DNA of 37,695 nt, from positions 1-37,695 of the forward strand of contig JAGXKN010000033.1 of assembly GCA_018335195.1 (NCBI GenBank), read 5' to 3'. Position 1 is the stretch's first letter. Each line of letters begins with the position of its first letter. The DNA comes from Desulfobacterales bacterium (GTDB lineage: Bacteria; Desulfobacterota; Desulfobacteria; Desulfobacterales; Desulfosalsimonadaceae). The position numbers and the translations under genes were made by a program. The notes beneath the pieces were generated by a model that saw only the letters and a program-made list of their open reading frames with translations, did not search any database and was not told the DNA's origin. Below, in pieces: positions 11,122 through 21,419 of the stretch.

Positions 11122-12174
11122 ATGAATGAATACGCCAATACGGAAAACCATATATGGGATACCACGAATCCGGGCAAAAGCAAACCCAAAGCCCTGGGCC
11201 TCTGTTCGGGCGGGCTCGACAGCATCCTGGCCGGCATGGTGCTTGCGCGACAGGGGGTTGAAGTGGTATGGGTCGGTTTTGAAACTCCGTTTTTCTCGGC
11301 AAGCAAGGCCCGGGCGGCTTCAAAAATGACCGGTATCCCGTTGATCGTCCGGGACATCACCGAGCGGTACCTGCCCGTGCTCACCGATCCGCCGGCAGGA
11401 TACGGGCAGTATATGAACCCCTGCATGGACTGTCATGCCCTGATGTTTCGCATTGCCGGGGAGATGATGGGGCAAACCGGGGCGGATTTTCTGTTTTCCG
11501 GCGAGGTCCTGGGCCAGCGGCCCAAATCCCAGGCCAAAACCTCCCTGCGCTATGTGGAAAAGCGTTCCGGATTTGACGGATATATTCTGCGGCCGCTTTC
11601 TGCAAAGAAGCTGCCGGTTACCGCCATGGAGCAGCAGGGCTTGGTAGATCGCGAGGCATTGCTCGATTTTTCCGGGCGCAGCCGAAAACCGCAAATGGCT
11701 CTGGCCGAATCCTTCGGGGTTACAGAGTACCCGGCCCCTGCCGGCGGATGCCTGCTTACGGACCCGGGTTTTTCAAAGCGCCTGGAAGACCTGATGGCTC
11801 ATTGCGCGGCGTTGACCCGGCGAGAGCTGGAATTGCTGAAGTACGGCCGGCATATGCGCCTGGCCCCTGAAGCCAAGCTTATCGTGGGCAGAAACAAGTC
11901 GGAAAATGAACGGATTCTGTCGTTTTTTGATCCCGGGGAAGATACCCGGATCCGCCTGCGGTCCACTGCCGGGCCGGTGGGCGTGATGCCGAAAAGCGGT
12001 CATTGCGAAGTAATCGAGCAGGCTGCAGGGATTTGCGCGGGATACAGCAAGGCCCCCGGGCGCCATTTGGTGGAAGTCGAAGTCAAGAAACCCGGCAGAC
12101 AGCCCGGGGTTATCCCGGTGATGCCGATTAATCCGGAAAATGCAAGCGAGTTGATGATTCTACCATGCAAATAG
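11122..12174 (+). CDS. PP-loop tRNA-thiolase-like protein (ThiI/MnmA-like)
   Basis: Residues about 22-45 (KALGLCSGGLDSILAGMVLA) contain the SGGxDS PP-loop that binds ATP in adenylating enzymes; PCMDCHALMFRIAGEM carries the CxxC-type cysteines and FLFSGEVLGQRPKSQ follows, as in the bacterial group annotated as tRNA 4-thiouridine or 2-thiouridine synthases. A later GGCLLTDPGFSKRLEDL and a C-terminal domain (about 230-350) with small beta features are shared by this group, which is distinct from true MnmA and from ThiI because no THUMP domain precedes the PP-loop. It probably activates a tRNA uridine for sulphur insertion, but the target base is not established. It is divergent from nth and overlaps the next gene by ten bases. 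Confidence 0.75.
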   Translation: MNEYANTENHIWDTTNPGKSKPKALGLCSGGLDSILAGMVLARQGVEVVWVGFETPFFSASKARAASKMTGIPLIVRDITERYLPVLTDPPAGYGQYMNPCMDCHALMFRIAGEMMGQTGADFLFSGEVLGQRPKSQAKTSLRYVEKRSGFDGYILRPLSAKKLPVTAMEQQGLVDREALLDFSGRSRKPQMALAESFGVTEYPAPAGGCLLTDPGFSKRLEDLMAHCAALTRRELELLKYGRHMRLAPEAKLIVGRNKSENERILSFFDPGEDTRIRLRSTAGPVGVMPKSGHCEVIEQAAGICAGYSKAPGRHLVEVEVKKPGRQPGVIPVMPINPENASELMILPCK

Positions 12175-12995
12175 AAAAAATTATATCCGGTGCGCAGACC
12201 GGAGCGGACCGGGCGGCCCTGGACTTTGCCATCGAGTACGACATTGAGCACGGCGGCTGGGTGCCTGAAGGGCGCCGGGCAGAAGACGGCATCATTGACG
12301 GGTCGTATCGCGTCGAGGAGCTTGCCGGCGGCGGTTATGTGGAGCGCACGGAACAAAACGTGATTGATTCAGACGGCACCCTGATTGTCAGCCGGGGGGA
12401 TCTCGTGGGCGGCTCCCTGTTGACCCGGGAGATGGCGGAAAAGCATGCCAAACCCTGTCTTCATGTGAATATCGGCGAGGTCATCGTGTTTGATGCCTCC
12501 ATTGACGTGTATGAGTGGTTAAGAGCGCATGACATTCGGGTTTTAAACGTGGCCGGCCCGCGCGCCAGCAAGGATGACCGGATTTACGAGATCGTCTGGA
12601 ATCTCCTGGAAATGGTGCTGCATATTGATGCGATTTCCGGGGCCATGCCGAATTTGTCCGCGGCGGATGCGGGCGCTGTCCATGGAGCGGACAGGGAACC
12701 GGCTTTGCCCCAAACCGTGGACGAGGCCGTGGAGATGCTGCTGGAGCAGTTGACGAAAAAGACCAAGTCCCGGATTGCGGGCCGGGAGGGCAAAGCGCTG
12801 GATGATTTTGAAAATGATCTGCGCCGCTACATTGTCGAGCAGTCCGGGCTTGCCTCCGGCAACCCGGCGCTGCTGGAGGACTGCTGCCAAGCGGTCGGCA
12901 AAAGCGACATGGACATTTCCGATGCGGCATTTATCATCATGCAGAAACTGGGGCAGCGCCTGCGGGAAATGGGCCATCTGCGGGTGGTAAAGTAG
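12165..12995 (+). CDS. Molybdenum-carrier-like Rossmann protein with C-terminal DUF6794-like domain
   Basis: Residues 1-155 resemble the putative molybdenum carrier family of Rossmann proteins: IEKIISGAQTGADRAALDFA at the start, GGWVPEGRRAEDG, DGTLIVSRGDLVGGS and VLNVAGPRASKDDRIY. The molybdenum role comes from homologues of Moco carrier proteins and is not proved. A second domain (about 185-276) reads TVDEAVEMLLEQLTKKTK, then LRRYIVEQSGLASGNPALLEDC and ends with ALREMGHL-like helix, resembling DUF6794, a small helical domain of unknown function. The fused arrangement is unusual to me. Its ATG lies within the last codons of the PP-loop gene, so the two are translated together. Confidence 0.75.
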   Translation: MQIEKIISGAQTGADRAALDFAIEYDIEHGGWVPEGRRAEDGIIDGSYRVEELAGGGYVERTEQNVIDSDGTLIVSRGDLVGGSLLTREMAEKHAKPCLHVNIGEVIVFDASIDVYEWLRAHDIRVLNVAGPRASKDDRIYEIVWNLLEMVLHIDAISGAMPNLSAADAGAVHGADREPALPQTVDEAVEMLLEQLTKKTKSRIAGREGKALDDFENDLRRYIVEQSGLASGNPALLEDCCQAVGKSDMDISDAAFIIMQKLGQRLREMGHLRVVK

Positions 12996-13037: not shown

Positions 13038-16000
13038 TCACGAATGAAAAAACAAGACTGCTTCCCGGACCCGATCATCCGGGTCCTGCTTGAGCTCCCG
13101 TATCATGACTTCCGTGTGCTCCCCGGGGATTTGGAACACGGTGTAGGCCGCGACAATGCGCACCCGGCTCGGATACCTGCGGCGCCTGAAAAGCCTGCGC
13201 CTGGGCAGCAGGATTTTTGCCAGCGGCTGGACGAAGTCCGGACTGCCGATTTGGCCCATGGCGCGGCAGGCCGCGATCAGCACGTCCGGGTCCGAGGATG
13301 TGGTGAGGATCTCGCTCAAGGTGCGCGAGACGCTTTCCGCTTTCCGCCGGCCCAGGGTTTGGATGGCTAATACCGCCAGCTCGGTGTCCCGGCTGTAAGC
13401 CAGTTCGGCCACCAGGCGGTTTACCTCGGCCCGGTTCAATCGCCGGGCCAGCCGGAAGGCGGCATGCCGCACCGGATCCTCGGGGTCCATCAGGGTGTAT
13501 TTGAGCTCCGTGACCAGGTCCGTGGTCACGGAATCGATGACTTCCAGGATGCGCGATTTTTCCTCTGCGTGGCTTTCGTTGATCAACGACTGCTTGAGCT
13601 GTTCAATGCCCGGGCGGCCCAGGCGGCCCAATAGTTCCGCGGCCAGCCGCCGCGGGTGAATTTCCTTTTCCTGCCGGATGAAGTCCACCAGCATCGGTGC
13701 CACGCCCTGGCCCATGGTGCTGATGAGCTGGCCGGCCTCCTGGCGGCGCTGCTTGTCCGAAGACTTCAGATCCGAGCAGAGCGCGTCCACGATCCGGGGA
13801 TCCAGGTATTTTCCAAAGGCGTGGGACTGGTTTCGGACTTCTGCGGGGGCGGCTTCGTCGAATCCGGAATGTTCCTGCAGCCGGGTGAAAATCCGGGTCG
13901 CGGAAGGATACTCACTGAACAGGATCAATTCCGCCGCGGCCTCGTGCAGTATTTCCGCGCCCTGGTCCAGGTGATCGCCGTATTCGGCCGCTTCAAAAAC
14001 CGGAATCAGGTGTCTGACAAACAGGTTAATATACGCCGGGCTCGGCTGCCAATCGGGCGGACTTAAAACCGCGCCGAAAGTATCGAGAATGGCCTTTTTC
14101 CCCGAATCTCCGGATTCCGGGAATTTCTGCGCAATCTGTTCCAGTATGGCGGATATGCGATCGGTTTCGTCGTTTAGGAACAGATCCCGAAGCTGTCTGG
14201 CCAGGGTTTCATCATCGCTCCGGTCAACCGGCACAGACTCTGATGCTTCGGGCTCCCGGGCCGGATCGGGACTGTCGGCCCAGGTTTCCTGGTCAGTGCT
14301 TTGCTGCGGGTTCGGGGAGATGTCTTGCGCTTCGGTTTCGAGGGCTGCCTGCGGGCGGATTTGACGGACCCTGTAAATCCGCTGATCGAAAAAAAGGCCC
14401 GACATGTCCCGGGTGCTGGAAAACTCCTGCCAGAATGCGCTGTTGAGCTTTTGCTCCGGAGTCTGAAACAGGATGTTAAAAAAAGCGAGGAGATCGTCTT
14501 CGGAAATTTCCTTTGAAAATGTCAGGCTGCTCAAGCCCGCATTTGTAAGCATTTTCACCATGGCATCGGAAAGGGCCTCAAATCCCGTGGGATCTACTTT
14601 TATATCGTTGACCAGCAGCGCGTGGTCGATCCGTGCAATGGTAAGCTGCGGATTTTCTGACAGATACGTATGGAGCTCTTTGGCCAGCCGCGACACCGCC
14701 CTTCTTGCCACAGGCCCGCCGGCGGGATAGAGTTTGAGCTGGCTGTAGGTGCCCAGCAGGTGGCTGATTACCCTGCGGATTTTTCTTAAATGCGGTTCCG
14801 GGTGCGGGGTGTCCGCGTCCGGGCGCAGTCCCATGATTTCCGGGGGTATTTCGGTTTCCGTTCCGGGATCGGTTTCTTTTCCCGCCGCCGTGCCGGAGGG
14901 CATTTTCGTATAAGTCACCTGGCGAATATCAATATGGGGCAGTTCCCGGTTTTGCAGAAAGGATTGCCAGAATCCGGGCGGGATGGTTTTGCGGTCTGTC
15001 CGGCTGATTTCATCGAGCAGGGTCTGCAGCTCGGTCTCGGTGAGGCCCTGCTTGAAGACCAGGGACTTGATTTCCAGCCGGTCGAGAAGCTCCAGGATTT
15101 TTTCGGCCAGCGCGGGCCAGCTGCCGGACTCGATTTCTTCCCCGTTGATCCAGATTTTCTGTTGCTGGCTGGTCACGGAAACACTGGCATTGAGTTGAAA
15201 AATCCGTTCCAGCAGTTTGAGCAGGTCCCTTGCCGCACTGGTCACGGATTTGCTTCCGGCCGGATACAGCCGGGTATTGCGCACGGCTACCAGCAAGGCC
15301 CGCAGCAGAAACGGTATCAGTTCAAGGCTCCGGCGGCTCAATGCAACCTCGCCCAGCCCCTCCGCGGTCCCGGGGGTTGGGGGGGATTCTTCAACCTCGG
15401 GTTCGGTCGTATCGGGGCCTTTTCCGATTTCCCGCTCGTCAAATACCAGTTGGTTGCGGGTTTTCTGGAACTCTTCCCAGGCCCCGGCCTTTTCCGGGTC
15501 ATCTGCGCGGCTGAAATGATGGGCCAGAAATGAAGCCGAGGGCAGCAGGTTTTGTTCAAAGAGCTTTTCCTGGTACGCGCCGATTTCCCTGTGAAGCACC
15601 CGTTTTTCTTCCGGGGAAATGCCGTCGTATATGATATTCCTGACCTGTTTGCTGGAAAACCGGATGTTCTCATCGTTTTCGGCAAATTCGGTGTGCACGA
15701 TTCCCTGTTCCTCAGCCGTTTTGACGATGTCATAGAGCCGGGCTGAATGATCCCGGGTAATGCCGGCCAGCATGCTCAGGAAACTCGTCTCCCCGAACGC
15801 CGAGGCCCGGTCCAGGAATTTTCGGCTTTGTTCATCCAGGATTTCCATTTTGTCATGTACGATTTCCTCCAGGGAGCGGGGGAAGTAGTCCTTCTCCGGA
15901 GAGGAGATGCACCATTTTTCTTCCTGCATGAAAATATGGCCGTCCCGGATCATTTTCCGGATCAGTTCCACCAGAAACAGCGGATTGCCCTGGGTGACCC

Positions 16001-17333
16001 GGGCCATTTCACTGCCCAGCCCGGTTGGCAGATCAAGGCCCGAAAAGAGCATGCGGAGGTATTTTGCAATATCCTCCTCTGCAAGCGGGGTCAGTACAAA
16101 GTTCTGGATGTCGAGCTCTTCTGCGTAAGCGTTTCGGAAAAGCTCCAGGGGAACGGATTCCCCTGTGGTTTGCTCCTCCAGGGATGCCGTGGCACAGACA
16201 AATATCAGCAGGTCCTCGGATTTCATGAGCATCCGGATCAAATGAAGCGAGGCCGGATCGCAGAAGTGAAAGTCGTCAATGAGCAGAACCAGGGGCTTTT
16301 TGCCGGCCAGTCGGCCCAGAAACCGGGTAAAGGTTTCAAAAATGGCTTCGCGTTCCCGGGGATCGTCTTCAGCAGCCGGCGGGGAGCCGCCCTTGAGCTG
16401 GGGGATCACCTGGGCAAGCCGGGAAATCTCTTTATCGGCCAGGGATTCGAGTACCGAAAGGCCCTTGTCCGGCAACTGGTTCATCAGGCCCATGGCAACG
16501 TATGCAGCCATGTAATAGGGTCGGAATGCTTCCTGGACCACCCCGTTGATACGGATCGGGCGCAGCCGGGTTTTTTCCAGGTTTTCCTGGATGGTGGCCA
16601 GAAAGCTGGTTTTGCCCATGCCGGGTTCCCCCTCGGCAATGATTAACCGGCTGGTGCCTTCGGCCACTTTTTTGAGCGCCTCGCTGACCCTGGCAAGCTG
16701 TGTTTTCCGTCCGGCAATGCCTGCGCTGTCAAGATAGCGGAGCGCCATTTTCGGAAACACATCCGTACTGACCAGCTCCGCCGCATCCGCACTTCGGTCC
16801 CTGCCCGACTGCTTGGCGTGATACATGGCGGTGTCCGCCTTGTGTATCAGGGTTTTGCCGTCTGCGGCATCCTCGGGAGCTGCGGCAATTCCGATGCTGA
16901 CCGTCAGGGGGATTTCCGCGGAGGCCTCGGCCGGGGAAAACGGGTTTTTGCGGACCAGGTGAAGCAGCTTCCGGGCAAGTGCGCGCGCGTCGGGTTTTTG
17001 TCCTTTCGGCAGCACAATCAGGAAGTTGTCCCCTGCATACCGAACCGGGATCGCGTTTCTGGGAAGGGCGTTTTTGATGATTTCAGCGGCGTGCACCATG
17101 GCCTGGTCGCCGACGTCATGGCCGTATTGATCGTTGATCCGCTTGAAATAGTCCACGTCAATCATCATCAGGCAAAGCGGGTTTCGTTCCAGTGCGGCCC
17201 AGTTGACGCGGTTTTTGAAGTAGTGCAGCAGATAGCGCCGGTTGTTCAGGCCCGTGACTTCATCTTCGAAGATGAGCGCGGCGGGGTCTCTGCCGACGTT
17301 TTGGAGGAAATAGAAAAATTTTTGATACTGCAT
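13038..17333 (-). CDS. Giant signalling protein: degenerate GGDEF, STAND-type ATPase, duplicated LYPxG domain, HEAT repeats
   Basis: The 1431-residue protein begins with a GGDEF-fold domain (about 20-185; DEVTGLNNRRYLLHYF, IDVDYFKRINDQYGHDVGD), but the signature loop reads AGDNF near residue 100 instead of GGDEF, so diguanylate cyclase activity is doubtful. Next comes an AAA/STAND ATPase (about 205-600) with Walker A EGEPGMGKTSF (about 235) and Walker B KPLVLLIDDFHF (about 350). Two related segments follow (about 665-805 and 850-1000), sharing TRLYPAG/LKLYPAGG, an INGEE/VNDIK strand and an FWQ motif: an internal duplication. The C-terminus (about 1190-1431) is HEAT-like repeats such as AAELLGRLGRPGIEQLKQSL. 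No membrane segment is seen. AGGGGG precedes the ATG. It looks like a large cytoplasmic sensor/scaffold; ligand unknown. Confidence 0.85.
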   Translation of the reverse strand: MQYQKFFYFLQNVGRDPAALIFEDEVTGLNNRRYLLHYFKNRVNWAALERNPLCLMMIDVDYFKRINDQYGHDVGDQAMVHAAEIIKNALPRNAIPVRYAGDNFLIVLPKGQKPDARALARKLLHLVRKNPFSPAEASAEIPLTVSIGIAAAPEDAADGKTLIHKADTAMYHAKQSGRDRSADAAELVSTDVFPKMALRYLDSAGIAGRKTQLARVSEALKKVAEGTSRLIIAEGEPGMGKTSFLATIQENLEKTRLRPIRINGVVQEAFRPYYMAAYVAMGLMNQLPDKGLSVLESLADKEISRLAQVIPQLKGGSPPAAEDDPREREAIFETFTRFLGRLAGKKPLVLLIDDFHFCDPASLHLIRMLMKSEDLLIFVCATASLEEQTTGESVPLELFRNAYAEELDIQNFVLTPLAEEDIAKYLRMLFSGLDLPTGLGSEMARVTQGNPLFLVELIRKMIRDGHIFMQEEKWCISSPEKDYFPRSLEEIVHDKMEILDEQSRKFLDRASAFGETSFLSMLAGITRDHSARLYDIVKTAEEQGIVHTEFAENDENIRFSSKQVRNIIYDGISPEEKRVLHREIGAYQEKLFEQNLLPSASFLAHHFSRADDPEKAGAWEEFQKTRNQLVFDEREIGKGPDTTEPEVEESPPTPGTAEGLGEVALSRRSLELIPFLLRALLVAVRNTRLYPAGSKSVTSAARDLLKLLERIFQLNASVSVTSQQQKIWINGEEIESGSWPALAEKILELLDRLEIKSLVFKQGLTETELQTLLDEISRTDRKTIPPGFWQSFLQNRELPHIDIRQVTYTKMPSGTAAGKETDPGTETEIPPEIMGLRPDADTPHPEPHLRKIRRVISHLLGTYSQLKLYPAGGPVARRAVSRLAKELHTYLSENPQLTIARIDHALLVNDIKVDPTGFEALSDAMVKMLTNAGLSSLTFSKEISEDDLLAFFNILFQTPEQKLNSAFWQEFSSTRDMSGLFFDQRIYRVRQIRPQAALETEAQDISPNPQQSTDQETWADSPDPAREPEASESVPVDRSDDETLARQLRDLFLNDETDRISAILEQIAQKFPESGDSGKKAILDTFGAVLSPPDWQPSPAYINLFVRHLIPVFEAAEYGDHLDQGAEILHEAAAELILFSEYPSATRIFTRLQEHSGFDEAAPAEVRNQSHAFGKYLDPRIVDALCSDLKSSDKQRRQEAGQLISTMGQGVAPMLVDFIRQEKEIHPRRLAAELLGRLGRPGIEQLKQSLINESHAEEKSRILEVIDSVTTDLVTELKYTLMDPEDPVRHAAFRLARRLNRAEVNRLVAELAYSRDTELAVLAIQTLGRRKAESVSRTLSEILTTSSDPDVLIAACRAMGQIGSPDFVQPLAKILLPRRRLFRRRRYPSRVRIVAAYTVFQIPGEHTEVMIRELKQDPDDRVREAVLFFHS

Positions 17334-17457
17334 TCAGCCCCCTGATGGGAAAGCACCTTGCATGATATCTGACAATTTTAAAATGATCATAAAAAAAACC
17401 AAGTTAAATGGCAAACAGAAATCATGTTTTTTCAAGCCGAAATCAGCCGCCGGGGTT

Positions 17458-17475
17458 GCGCGGATCGATCCGCGC
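17458..17475. promoter_or_regulatory. 18-bp perfect palindrome upstream of the CBS gene
   Basis: GCGCGGATCGATCCGCGC is self-complementary over all 18 bases and lies 40 bases before the CBS-protein start, in the divergent gap shared with the giant ATPase gene. It could be an operator for a dimeric regulator of one or both genes. The surrounding gap is A+T-rich, so the G+C-rich palindrome stands out. Confidence 0.4.
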
Positions 17476-17514
17476 GTTAGATTTGGAATAAATAGAGGCA
17501 AAAAGGGGGAAGCA

Positions 17515-18021
17515 ATGAAAACCGCGGCTGATATTTTACGGGAGAAAAGAACGTCCCGCTTGGTGGAAATCCCGCATGACGCCACGATCATGGAGGCTGC
17601 CGCCCGGATGGCAGGCGAGCGGGTCGGCTCCATTCTGGTGCGCAGAGATGATCAGATTGTCGGCATTTGGACCGAGCGCGATTTTCTCCACAACATGCTC
17701 GAGCCTGGTTTTGACCCGCACCGTGCCGCCGTGGGCGATTACATGCAGACCGCGCTGGTGGCCGTGTCAGCAGATACGCCCGTTTACAGGCTGGAGGAAA
17801 TGTTTCTGGGGCTTTTTATCCGTCATCTTCTGGTCAAGGCAAATGAAACCTACCTGGGACTGCTTTCCATCGGGGACGTGCTGCGTTCCAGCCTTCTGGA
17901 AAAGGACCGGGAGATCCGGGAGTTAAACCGGATTGCCAGTTGGGAGTATTATGAAAATTGGGCATGGCATCACAAGTATGAGCCCAAAACCGGCCGCGGT
18001 CGCAGGGATGAAGAGGAATGA
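17515..18021 (+). CDS. CBS-domain-pair protein
   Basis: The 168-residue protein consists of two tandem CBS motifs: SRLVEIPHDATIMEAAARMAGERVGSILVRRDDQIVGIWTERDF split over residues about 12-55, then TALVAVSADTPVYRLEEMFLGLFIRHLLV and YLGLLSIGDVL (about 75-125). CBS pairs bind adenosyl ligands such as AMP, ATP or SAM and signal energy state. A charged tail (WEYYENWAWHHKYEPKTGRG) follows. ATG at 17515 is chosen because AAAAAGGGGGAA lies just before it; an upstream in-frame ATG would add 51 unsupported residues. It is divergent from the giant ATPase gene and convergent with the histidine kinase gene, whose stop is ten bases away, which suggests a signalling neighbourhood but not an operon. Confidence 0.9.
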   Translation: MKTAADILREKRTSRLVEIPHDATIMEAAARMAGERVGSILVRRDDQIVGIWTERDFLHNMLEPGFDPHRAAVGDYMQTALVAVSADTPVYRLEEMFLGLFIRHLLVKANETYLGLLSIGDVLRSSLLEKDREIRELNRIASWEYYENWAWHHKYEPKTGRGRRDEEE

Positions 18022-20604: not shown

Positions 20605-20670
20605 CATGGTTAATTTTTACAAACGAAGATCTGTCACAAAAACACACAGGATGAAGAAAGGGGGATGAAT

Positions 20671-21240
20671 ATGGCGGACACCTATGCGAATCCGGCGCCT
20701 TTGGGGCTGATGGGCTTCGGCATGACCACCGTGCTGCTCAACATTCACAATGCCGGTTTTTTTCCGCTCAGCGCCATGGTGCTTTCCATGGGTATTTTTT
20801 ACGGGGGCATCGCCCAGATTATTGCGGGAATCTGCGAGTACAGCAAGGGAAACACATTCGGGTTTGTGGCCTTTCTGTCGTTCGGTCATTTCTGGCTGAC
20901 CCTGGTCGGGTTGCTTCTTCTGCCGGAACTCGGCTTGAGCGAGGGCACGTCTCCCGGGTTTATGGGATGGTATCTGTTTATGTGGGGGCTGTTTACATTT
21001 TTGATGTATATTGCCACCCTGAAGAAAAACCGGGCGCTGCAGACCATTTTCCTGACGCTCTGGATCCTGTTTTTTCTGCTGGCCATCCACGATTGGACCG
21101 GAATCGGCGTGATCGGCACGATCGCCGGCTATGAAGGCATCGTGTGCGGGGGCAGCGCCATTTATCTGGCCATGGCCGAGGTGATCAACGAGAGCATGGG
21201 CCGGGTGGTCCTTCCCATTGGTGAGCCTGCCGCAGGATAG
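20671..21240 (+). CDS. satP: Acetate/succinate-type transporter, GPR1/FUN34/YaaH family
   Basis: This 189-residue membrane protein has the family signature [23 protein letters not shown] at its start (the NPAPLGL motif) and six hydrophobic segments: about residues 10-30, 35-58, 68-90, 98-118, 125-145 and 150-175. The family moves acetate, and in some members succinate, across the cytoplasmic membrane. ATG at 20671 is favoured over one six bases earlier because AGGGGG then has normal spacing. A promoter and a terminator bracket it, so it is transcribed alone. Position 2 kb from malate synthase and isocitrate lyase agrees with growth on acetate. Confidence 0.88.
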
Positions 21241-21250
21241 CCCGTCATAC

Positions 21251-21302
21251 GGCATGGTCCCAGTTGCGGGTGTTTTTTCCCGTCCCGGGACATGCCCTTT
21301 TT
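21251..21302 (+). terminator. Rho-independent terminator after satP
   Basis: GGCATGGTCCC pairs with GGGACATGCC (one bulged base), with an inner CGGG/CCCG stem, followed by CTTTTTC. It begins 10 bases after the satP stop. Confidence 0.55.
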
Positions 21303-21419
21303 CGGGATTCCCCCGTCGGTGTGCAGGCAATTTATTCTCTCCTTGAACGACGTGTTTAAAAAAGATAAAAGAAAAGCTCCTGTACATTTATTCAAGTTTT
21401 TCCCCAGGAGGAGTGCATT

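Follow-up and report, generated by a model that had tools for sequence, protein, structure and literature searches.

A GGDEF-ATPase-HEAT protein with a duplicated, unnamed LYP domain in Desulfobacterales: a candidate STAND-type switch with an altered cyclase signature

The stretch of DNA analysed here (37,695 nucleotides of contig JAGXKN010000033.1 from a Desulfobacterales bacterium, called the window) carries at positions 13038-17333 of the minus strand an open reading frame (ORF) of 1431 amino acids, which starts with ATG and whose coordinates include the stop codon. The encoded protein combines a GGDEF domain with an ATPase and C-terminal repeats, and the question is what kind of protein this is and whether it produces cyclic di-GMP (c-di-GMP). 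The order of parts given in a preliminary description of the locus (GGDEF, ATPase, two LYP segments, HEAT repeats) was confirmed by Pfam and by profile comparison. We regard the protein as a new arrangement of familiar parts to which an uncharacterised domain, LYP, is added. In the reading that we prefer, and for which we regard the case as evenly balanced, it would be a signalling ATPase of the STAND type (signal transduction ATPases with numerous domains) with an N-terminal GGDEF effector, a nucleotide switch and a C-terminal LYP-LYP-HEAT sensor. The effector would be a regulated cyclase in most members and a pseudo-cyclase in this one.

The duplicated LYP domain and its partners

The interval between the ATPase and the HEAT repeats of the window protein gave nothing above the Pfam cut-off. 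It contains two segments that had been described as homologous, and the profiles of LYP1 (34 sequences) and LYP2 (33 sequences) aligned over 144 columns with 22% identity (hhalign, E 1.5e-38). This similarity is not due to chance and the two copies are true duplicates. Each is about 145-150 residues long, and their bounds were shifted with respect to the preliminary description, to roughly 662-812 and 846-992. The shared sequence features noticed before were recovered in an alignment of 25 family members: Leu-Tyr-Pro was invariant in both copies (L689 Y690 P691 and L868 Y869 P870), as was a Trp (W789 and W968), and an Asn was fully conserved in copy 1 (N730) and almost fully in copy 2 (N909).

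The duplicated domain is genuine, and neither Pfam nor NCBIfam has a name for it. When 34 LYP members were compared with Pfam the best E value was 0.0021, and no family was found in more than three members even at E <= 1. Neither window copy had an NCBIfam match at E <= 0.5. The earlier remark that no named family was known for these segments agrees with this, as the profile searches of both libraries gave no match above a curated cut-off. The best match in a viral library had an E value of 0.46. A PDB profile match over 35 columns with Octarellin V.1, a designed protein (E 0.00059), was dismissed as chance. As judged by titles and the openings of abstracts in lists that were partly covered, neither a GGDEF-ATPase-HEAT protein nor the LYP segment is the subject of a listed paper.

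A single LYP copy was modelled by AlphaFold2 with a mean predicted local distance difference test (pLDDT) of 92.7 and a predicted TM score (pTM) of 0.87. The predicted elements are, in order, three helices (one short, then two long), a strand pair, one helix, one strand, two further helices and a last strand. The model of the tandem reached 84.6, with a linker of low confidence. Foldseek searches of the PDB with both copies and with one copy gave no match at E <= 0.001, a result by which a new fold is not yet shown. With regard to a putative GAF/PelD-like fold, the best match, PelD (4etz_B; E 0.029, TM 0.22, root-mean-square deviation 13.6), is not significant. The VIA-align matches (Z up to 6.8 and 6.1) covered mostly the N-terminal helical hairpin only, about 50 residues.

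Across the phylum the LYP1 profile detected the domain in 59 of 247 genomes (E <= 0.01), and among nearer relatives in 30 of 40 (E <= 0.001). The genome of the window gave two LYP matches at E <= 1, both in the 13038-17333 gene. A Pfam scan of 20 LYP proteins (loci L134, L136, L140 and L147 were left out) revealed HD_5 as the partner in eight, HEAT in ten (with a HEAT match under the Pfam cut-off in L143 and L150), PAS and HisKA in one, and nothing in one. The HD-GYP-like and HEAT proteins of this phylum that carry LYP have this domain in common with the window protein and, unlike it, are without GGDEF or ATPase. The full-length genes of two LYP-HEAT cases encode GGDEF-ATPase-LYP-HEAT proteins with a single LYP copy. 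In one of these two, L158, the ATPase match lies under the cut-off, and a third protein, L157, reads like them. All three, more distant homologues of the window protein, carry AGDEF, and therefore the single-copy form may be older than the tandem.

At each of four fetched loci, picked for two LYP genes per contig (contigs G151:C211 and G245:C105 were left out), a LYP-HEAT gene is followed by a LYP-HD_5 (HD-GYP-like) neighbour on the same strand (Table 1). The HD domains of 11 printed LYP-HD proteins keep HD[IV]GK and GYP and miss the Glu of the usual HHE; these proteins (L144, L145, L146, L147, L148, L153, L154 and L159-L162) form a divergent HD-GYP-like group. LYP can be regarded as an uncharacterised domain that tends to occur alongside c-di-GMP enzymes.

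A rival reading is that LYP serves chiefly for homotypic docking. Through it, the LYP-HEAT proteins would pair with the LYP-HD-GYP-like ones and the window protein would scaffold c-di-GMP enzymes, with its ATPase tuning assembly rather than cyclase activity. The gene order at all four loci and the tandem of LYP copies in the window protein are consistent with this. However, the genome of the window has no second LYP protein, although several family members have one, and we consider docking as the main role unlikely, if worth keeping in mind.

The altered GGDEF signature

The GGDEF domain of the window protein aligned with that of PleD (E 1e-29). In the signature AGDNF (residues 100-104), Asn103 replaces the second Glu of the PleD GGEEF. 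Residues D59, K64, N67, D76 and D102 align with D, K, N, D and E of PleD, which we take to be catalytic or GTP-contacting. As in the cyclases PleD, WspR and VCA0965 a full GGDEF domain is present, whereas AGDNF, the lack of a visible RxxD site and the ATPase as partner set the window protein apart from these. VCA0965 has AGDEF, as do most orthologues of the window protein; it was described as active with AGDEF and inactive with AGDAF (PMC3974145). Because the window protein has its Asn at the same fourth position, it probably makes no c-di-GMP, a conclusion that is supported by analogy.

The signature was compared in 55 rows, three of which lacked it, so that 52 cover it (among the intact rows, L124:3-977 reads the L119 gene a second time). 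It was intact in 36 rows, as AGDEF (32) or GGDEF (4). The 16 altered ones read AGDNF (4), AGDSF (2), GSYEF (2) and, once each, SGDNF, AGDKF, AGDIF, AGDAF, GAGEL, GVGEF, GADEF and GAGEF. All seven signature-covering rows from the window's genus were altered. Among 47 orthologues [AG]GDEF was kept in 32 and altered in the other 15, which implies that the altered cyclase site is the state of a lineage. The earlier view that c-di-GMP is probably not made can thus be retained for this protein, by the VCA0965 analogy, and not for the protein type. On a quick, unrooted tree of the 47 orthologues (rows that have over 600 residues once the GGDEF domain, whose columns were excluded, is set aside) at least five signature changes were needed; the starred branches alone force five. 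As the distant members are intact, these changes would be losses. The family would then have begun as cyclases and have lost catalysis several times, the window protein being one of the inactive members.

Within the window's genus the GGDEF domain and the ATPase core both still had a mean identity of 64%; for the GGDEF domain this speaks for a kept role. In the genome of the window 15 other GGDEF matches were found, and all seven whose loci were read carry GG[DE]EF.

One role of a GGDEF domain with an altered site could be that of a nucleotide receptor, in which bound GTP or c-di-GMP gates the ATPase. The residues aligned with PleD are kept in the window protein except for the fourth signature position, and degenerate GGDEF domains are reported to act elsewhere as c-di-GMP receptors (PMC3974145). 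However, the RxxD site was not seen in the 52 printed rows. Moreover, binding is not kept everywhere, because additional residues are gone from some orthologues (GSYEF together with GLIGIDRVI in L035 and L036; MINID for MIDVD in L012-L014). A receptor role appears improbable to us. That the domain would still synthesize c-di-GMP despite AGDNF is very improbable: the signature rules are described as having exceptions at the first position, but AGDAF, in which the fourth position is changed, is inactive in VCA0965 (PMC3974145).

The ATPase core and the proposed switch

The Walker motifs had been described as intact, and the alignment of the 25 family members bears this out, with G235, G238, G240, K241, T242, D353 and D354 invariant. 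In 32 wider rows K241 and D353 were invariant, T242 was Ser in some, and D354 and P451 were nearly invariant.

The STAND plan consists of a terminal effector, a P-loop ATPase and a repeat sensor (outlined in PMC6468293). In the window protein a P-loop nucleotide-binding domain with Walker A and B motifs is followed by GNPLF, a GxP-like motif placed by motif only and without a structure, with the GGDEF domain at the N-terminus and the HEAT repeats at the C-terminus. It is in this respect like MalT, PH0952 and APAF1, in which the core lies between a terminal effector and C-terminal repeats and a GxP-like motif is found. It differs from them in having a GGDEF effector and a sensor of two LYP copies and HEAT repeats, not TPR, WD40 or LRR, and also in the absence of the sensor-1 arginine and in a winged helix that is presumed only. 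The model TIGR03903 (TOMM system kinase/cyclase fusion) matched residues 202-616 with E 2.7e-24 and 85 bits against a cut-off of 705.75 bits; the effector of these fusions differs from that of the window protein. The nucleotide-switched scaffold suggested in the preliminary description accordingly finds its counterpart in the STAND-like anatomy, while the switch itself is predicted.

According to the STAND-type reading, binding of a ligand to the LYP/HEAT end would in most members release an ADP-closed ATPase core. Oligomerisation driven by ATP would follow and bring the GGDEF domains together in pairs, and c-di-GMP synthesis would begin. In the genus of the window, where the fourth signature residue, Glu, is replaced, that switch would operate with a pseudo-cyclase. 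This GGDEF domain may still bind a nucleotide or a partner, without c-di-GMP synthesis. A nucleotide-hydrolysing partner is thought to promote cyclase dimerisation and activity also in the Escherichia coli pair of DgcE and the GTPase RdcA (PMC6510439). In contrast to the window protein, DgcE and RdcA are described there as separate proteins, with a dynamin-like GTPase and a membrane MASE1 domain.

Several observations weigh against this reading. A profile of residues 195-640 compared with solved structures gave no convincing STAND protein; the best match was 7jgr_G (E 0.0026, about 70 columns) and the best NB-ARC match had an E value of 0.14. The winged helix presumed in residues 375-616 gained no support from the profile search. 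The sensor-1 region, FVCATAS, is without the arginine that many STAND proteins have at this point. An RxxD product-inhibition site, which is common in GGDEF cyclases and not universal, is absent from the window protein and none was recognised by eye in the 52 printed rows. The tree that underlies the number of losses has SH-aLRT support only, in addition to being quick and unrooted. The ratio of GGDEF to ATPase divergence had a median of 1.19 in the window's genus (21 non-independent pairs) and was 0.89 and 0.87 in two intact groups (105 and 120 non-independent pairs); the faster divergence of the GGDEF domain relative to the ATPase could be decay. Finally, a widely conserved neighbour was not found in 37 loci (36 named ones and the window, many on short contigs), the commonest, a SLOG-family gene, being present in five and the next in four.

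Distribution, neighbouring genes and implications

The protein or a fragment of it is present in 33 of the 36 genomes of the window's taxonomic family, where it is thus nearly universal, and its occurrence beyond the family is patchy. The three without it (G004, G013 and G017) are 82, 76 and 60% complete, with best E values of 3.5e-18, 3.7e-24 and 1.3e-22; the best matches in G013 and G017 are GGDEF-only. With the orthologue profile (E <= 1e-60) 11 of 116 genomes matched at the level of the order and 6 of 198 at that of the phylum, the genome of the window being counted each time. A scan of named contigs was evaluated for the best 80 of 221 loci. Among these, 34 (L038-L071) match beyond the GGDEF domain and L074-L117 match it only. 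L072 and L073 were excluded as orthologues, since contig ends truncate their matches, at query residue 239 in L072 and 187 in L073; no LYP match was found in the genome of the latter. The titles of L038-L071 are mostly Desulfobacterales, Desulfobacteraceae or Deltaproteobacteria. Single metagenome-assembled genomes titled Nitrospirae (L052), Rokuibacteriota (L063) and Acidobacteria (L069) also match, for which binning errors are possible; in each of them a single frame of 1401-1420 residues contains both LYP copies. Paired whole-gene copies, close together and in the same orientation, were seen at G170:C39:11058-20175 and G389:C226:13132-22438.

The first 22 residues of the protein (window 17268-17333), a leader before the GGDEF domain, have no domain name and were the most conserved stretch in all four groups compared, with 85% in the window's genus. 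A sigma-70-like site (Table 1), a consensus match only, ends 53 bases before the start codon. Divergently oriented and 28 bases from the start of the gene, a CBS-domain protein is encoded at 17362-18021 (+). The convergent gene at 12165-12995 (+) encodes a circularly permuted YpsA of the SLOG family, and a relative lies near the gene in four of the 36 named loci. The SLOG superfamily is linked to nucleotide signalling and to conflict systems. The gene at 11122-12174 (+) encodes a protein of 350 residues in which a ThiI-like domain is joined to NFACT-R_2, an NFACT RNA-binding domain. An ORF of 256 residues at 20620-21387 (-) had no Pfam match at E <= 0.01; downstream of it, in the same orientation, is a dinitrogenase iron-molybdenum cofactor-like gene. 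The other scanned neighbours look like housekeeping or signalling genes. A pathway was not deduced from the neighbourhood, because the commonest neighbour occurs in just five of the 37 loci.

GGDEF is a rare signal-making effector in VMAP conflict systems, in which STAND NTPases and HEAT repeats also occur (as described in PMC7159879); these are three-component vWA-MoxR systems and such partner genes were not noted beside the window gene. We give hardly any credence to the window protein being an Avs-like anti-phage STAND protein with GGDEF as alarm-signal effector: its terminal effector and repeat sensor, the SLOG-family neighbour and the rare GGDEF effectors described for NTP-dependent conflict systems, in which STAND NTPases are used as well (PMC7159879), would fit, but PADLOC (2023 library) gave only four marginal partial matches (the best, E 0.00024, to HEAT repeats) and no defence model over the ATPase and sensor, a gene found in 33 of the 36 genomes of a family does not resemble one of a defence island, and the other neighbours have the housekeeping or signalling appearance mentioned.

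Table 1. Coordinates of the gene, its parts and associated features (window positions unless a locus is given)
Feature	Position	Strand	Basis
Whole gene, 1431 aa	13038..17333	-	start Met invariant in 25 aligned family rows
GGDEF domain, residues 24-180	16794..17264	-	Pfam PF00990 E 2.3e-42; PleD alignment
Altered signature AGDNF, residues 100-104	17022..17036	-	aligned with PleD GGEEF
AAA_16 P-loop ATPase core, residues 207-374	16212..16715	-	Pfam PF13191 E 2.7e-22; overlapped by an AAA_22 match (Pfam)
Walker A GEPGMGKT, residues 235-242	16608..16631	-	sequence, alignments
Walker B VLLIDD, residues 349-354	16272..16289	-	sequence, alignments
Post-ATPase part, residues 375-616, presumed STAND helical and winged-helix	15486..16211	-	TIGR03903 match 202-616, far under cut-off
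GNPLF, GxP-like motif, residues 449-453	15975..15989	-	G449, P451, F453 invariant in 25 rows
LYP domain copy 1, residues 662-812	14898..15350	-	profiles; AlphaFold2 pLDDT 92.7
LYP domain copy 2, residues 846-992	14358..14798	-	profiles; AlphaFold2 model of both copies
HEAT-repeat region, about residues 1178-1424	13062..13802	-	Pfam PF13646 (HEAT_2) E 6.6e-16, best stretch residues 1306-1376; PRK13800 match 1178-1424
Sigma-70-like site upstream of start codon	17386..17414	-	10/12 consensus matches, consensus match only
LYP-HEAT / LYP-HD_5 gene pairs	L159:1390-4521, L160:1381-4375, L161:847-3852, L162:1403-4836	same within pair	

Taken further, the STAND-type reading suggests, tentatively and with somewhat more doubt than trust on our part, a family of ATP-switched diguanylate cyclases, without a counterpart in the literature lists covered, in which catalysis would have disappeared on at least five occasions and the switch and sensor been kept, giving rise to pseudo-cyclase hubs. 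It also suggests a LYP domain, possibly a new fold, that would be a recurrent link between HEAT repeats and c-di-GMP enzymes. If this is true, c-di-GMP synthesis could be governed by a STAND switch, a logic known from MalT and the NLR immune receptors. The repeated change of the active site in an otherwise conserved protein would then be a natural test of non-catalytic roles of GGDEF domains. The LYP domain would be worth a family entry of its own, because it marks HD-GYP-like or HEAT proteins in many genomes of the phylum, proteins that are currently named in the libraries only by their HD-GYP-like or HEAT parts.

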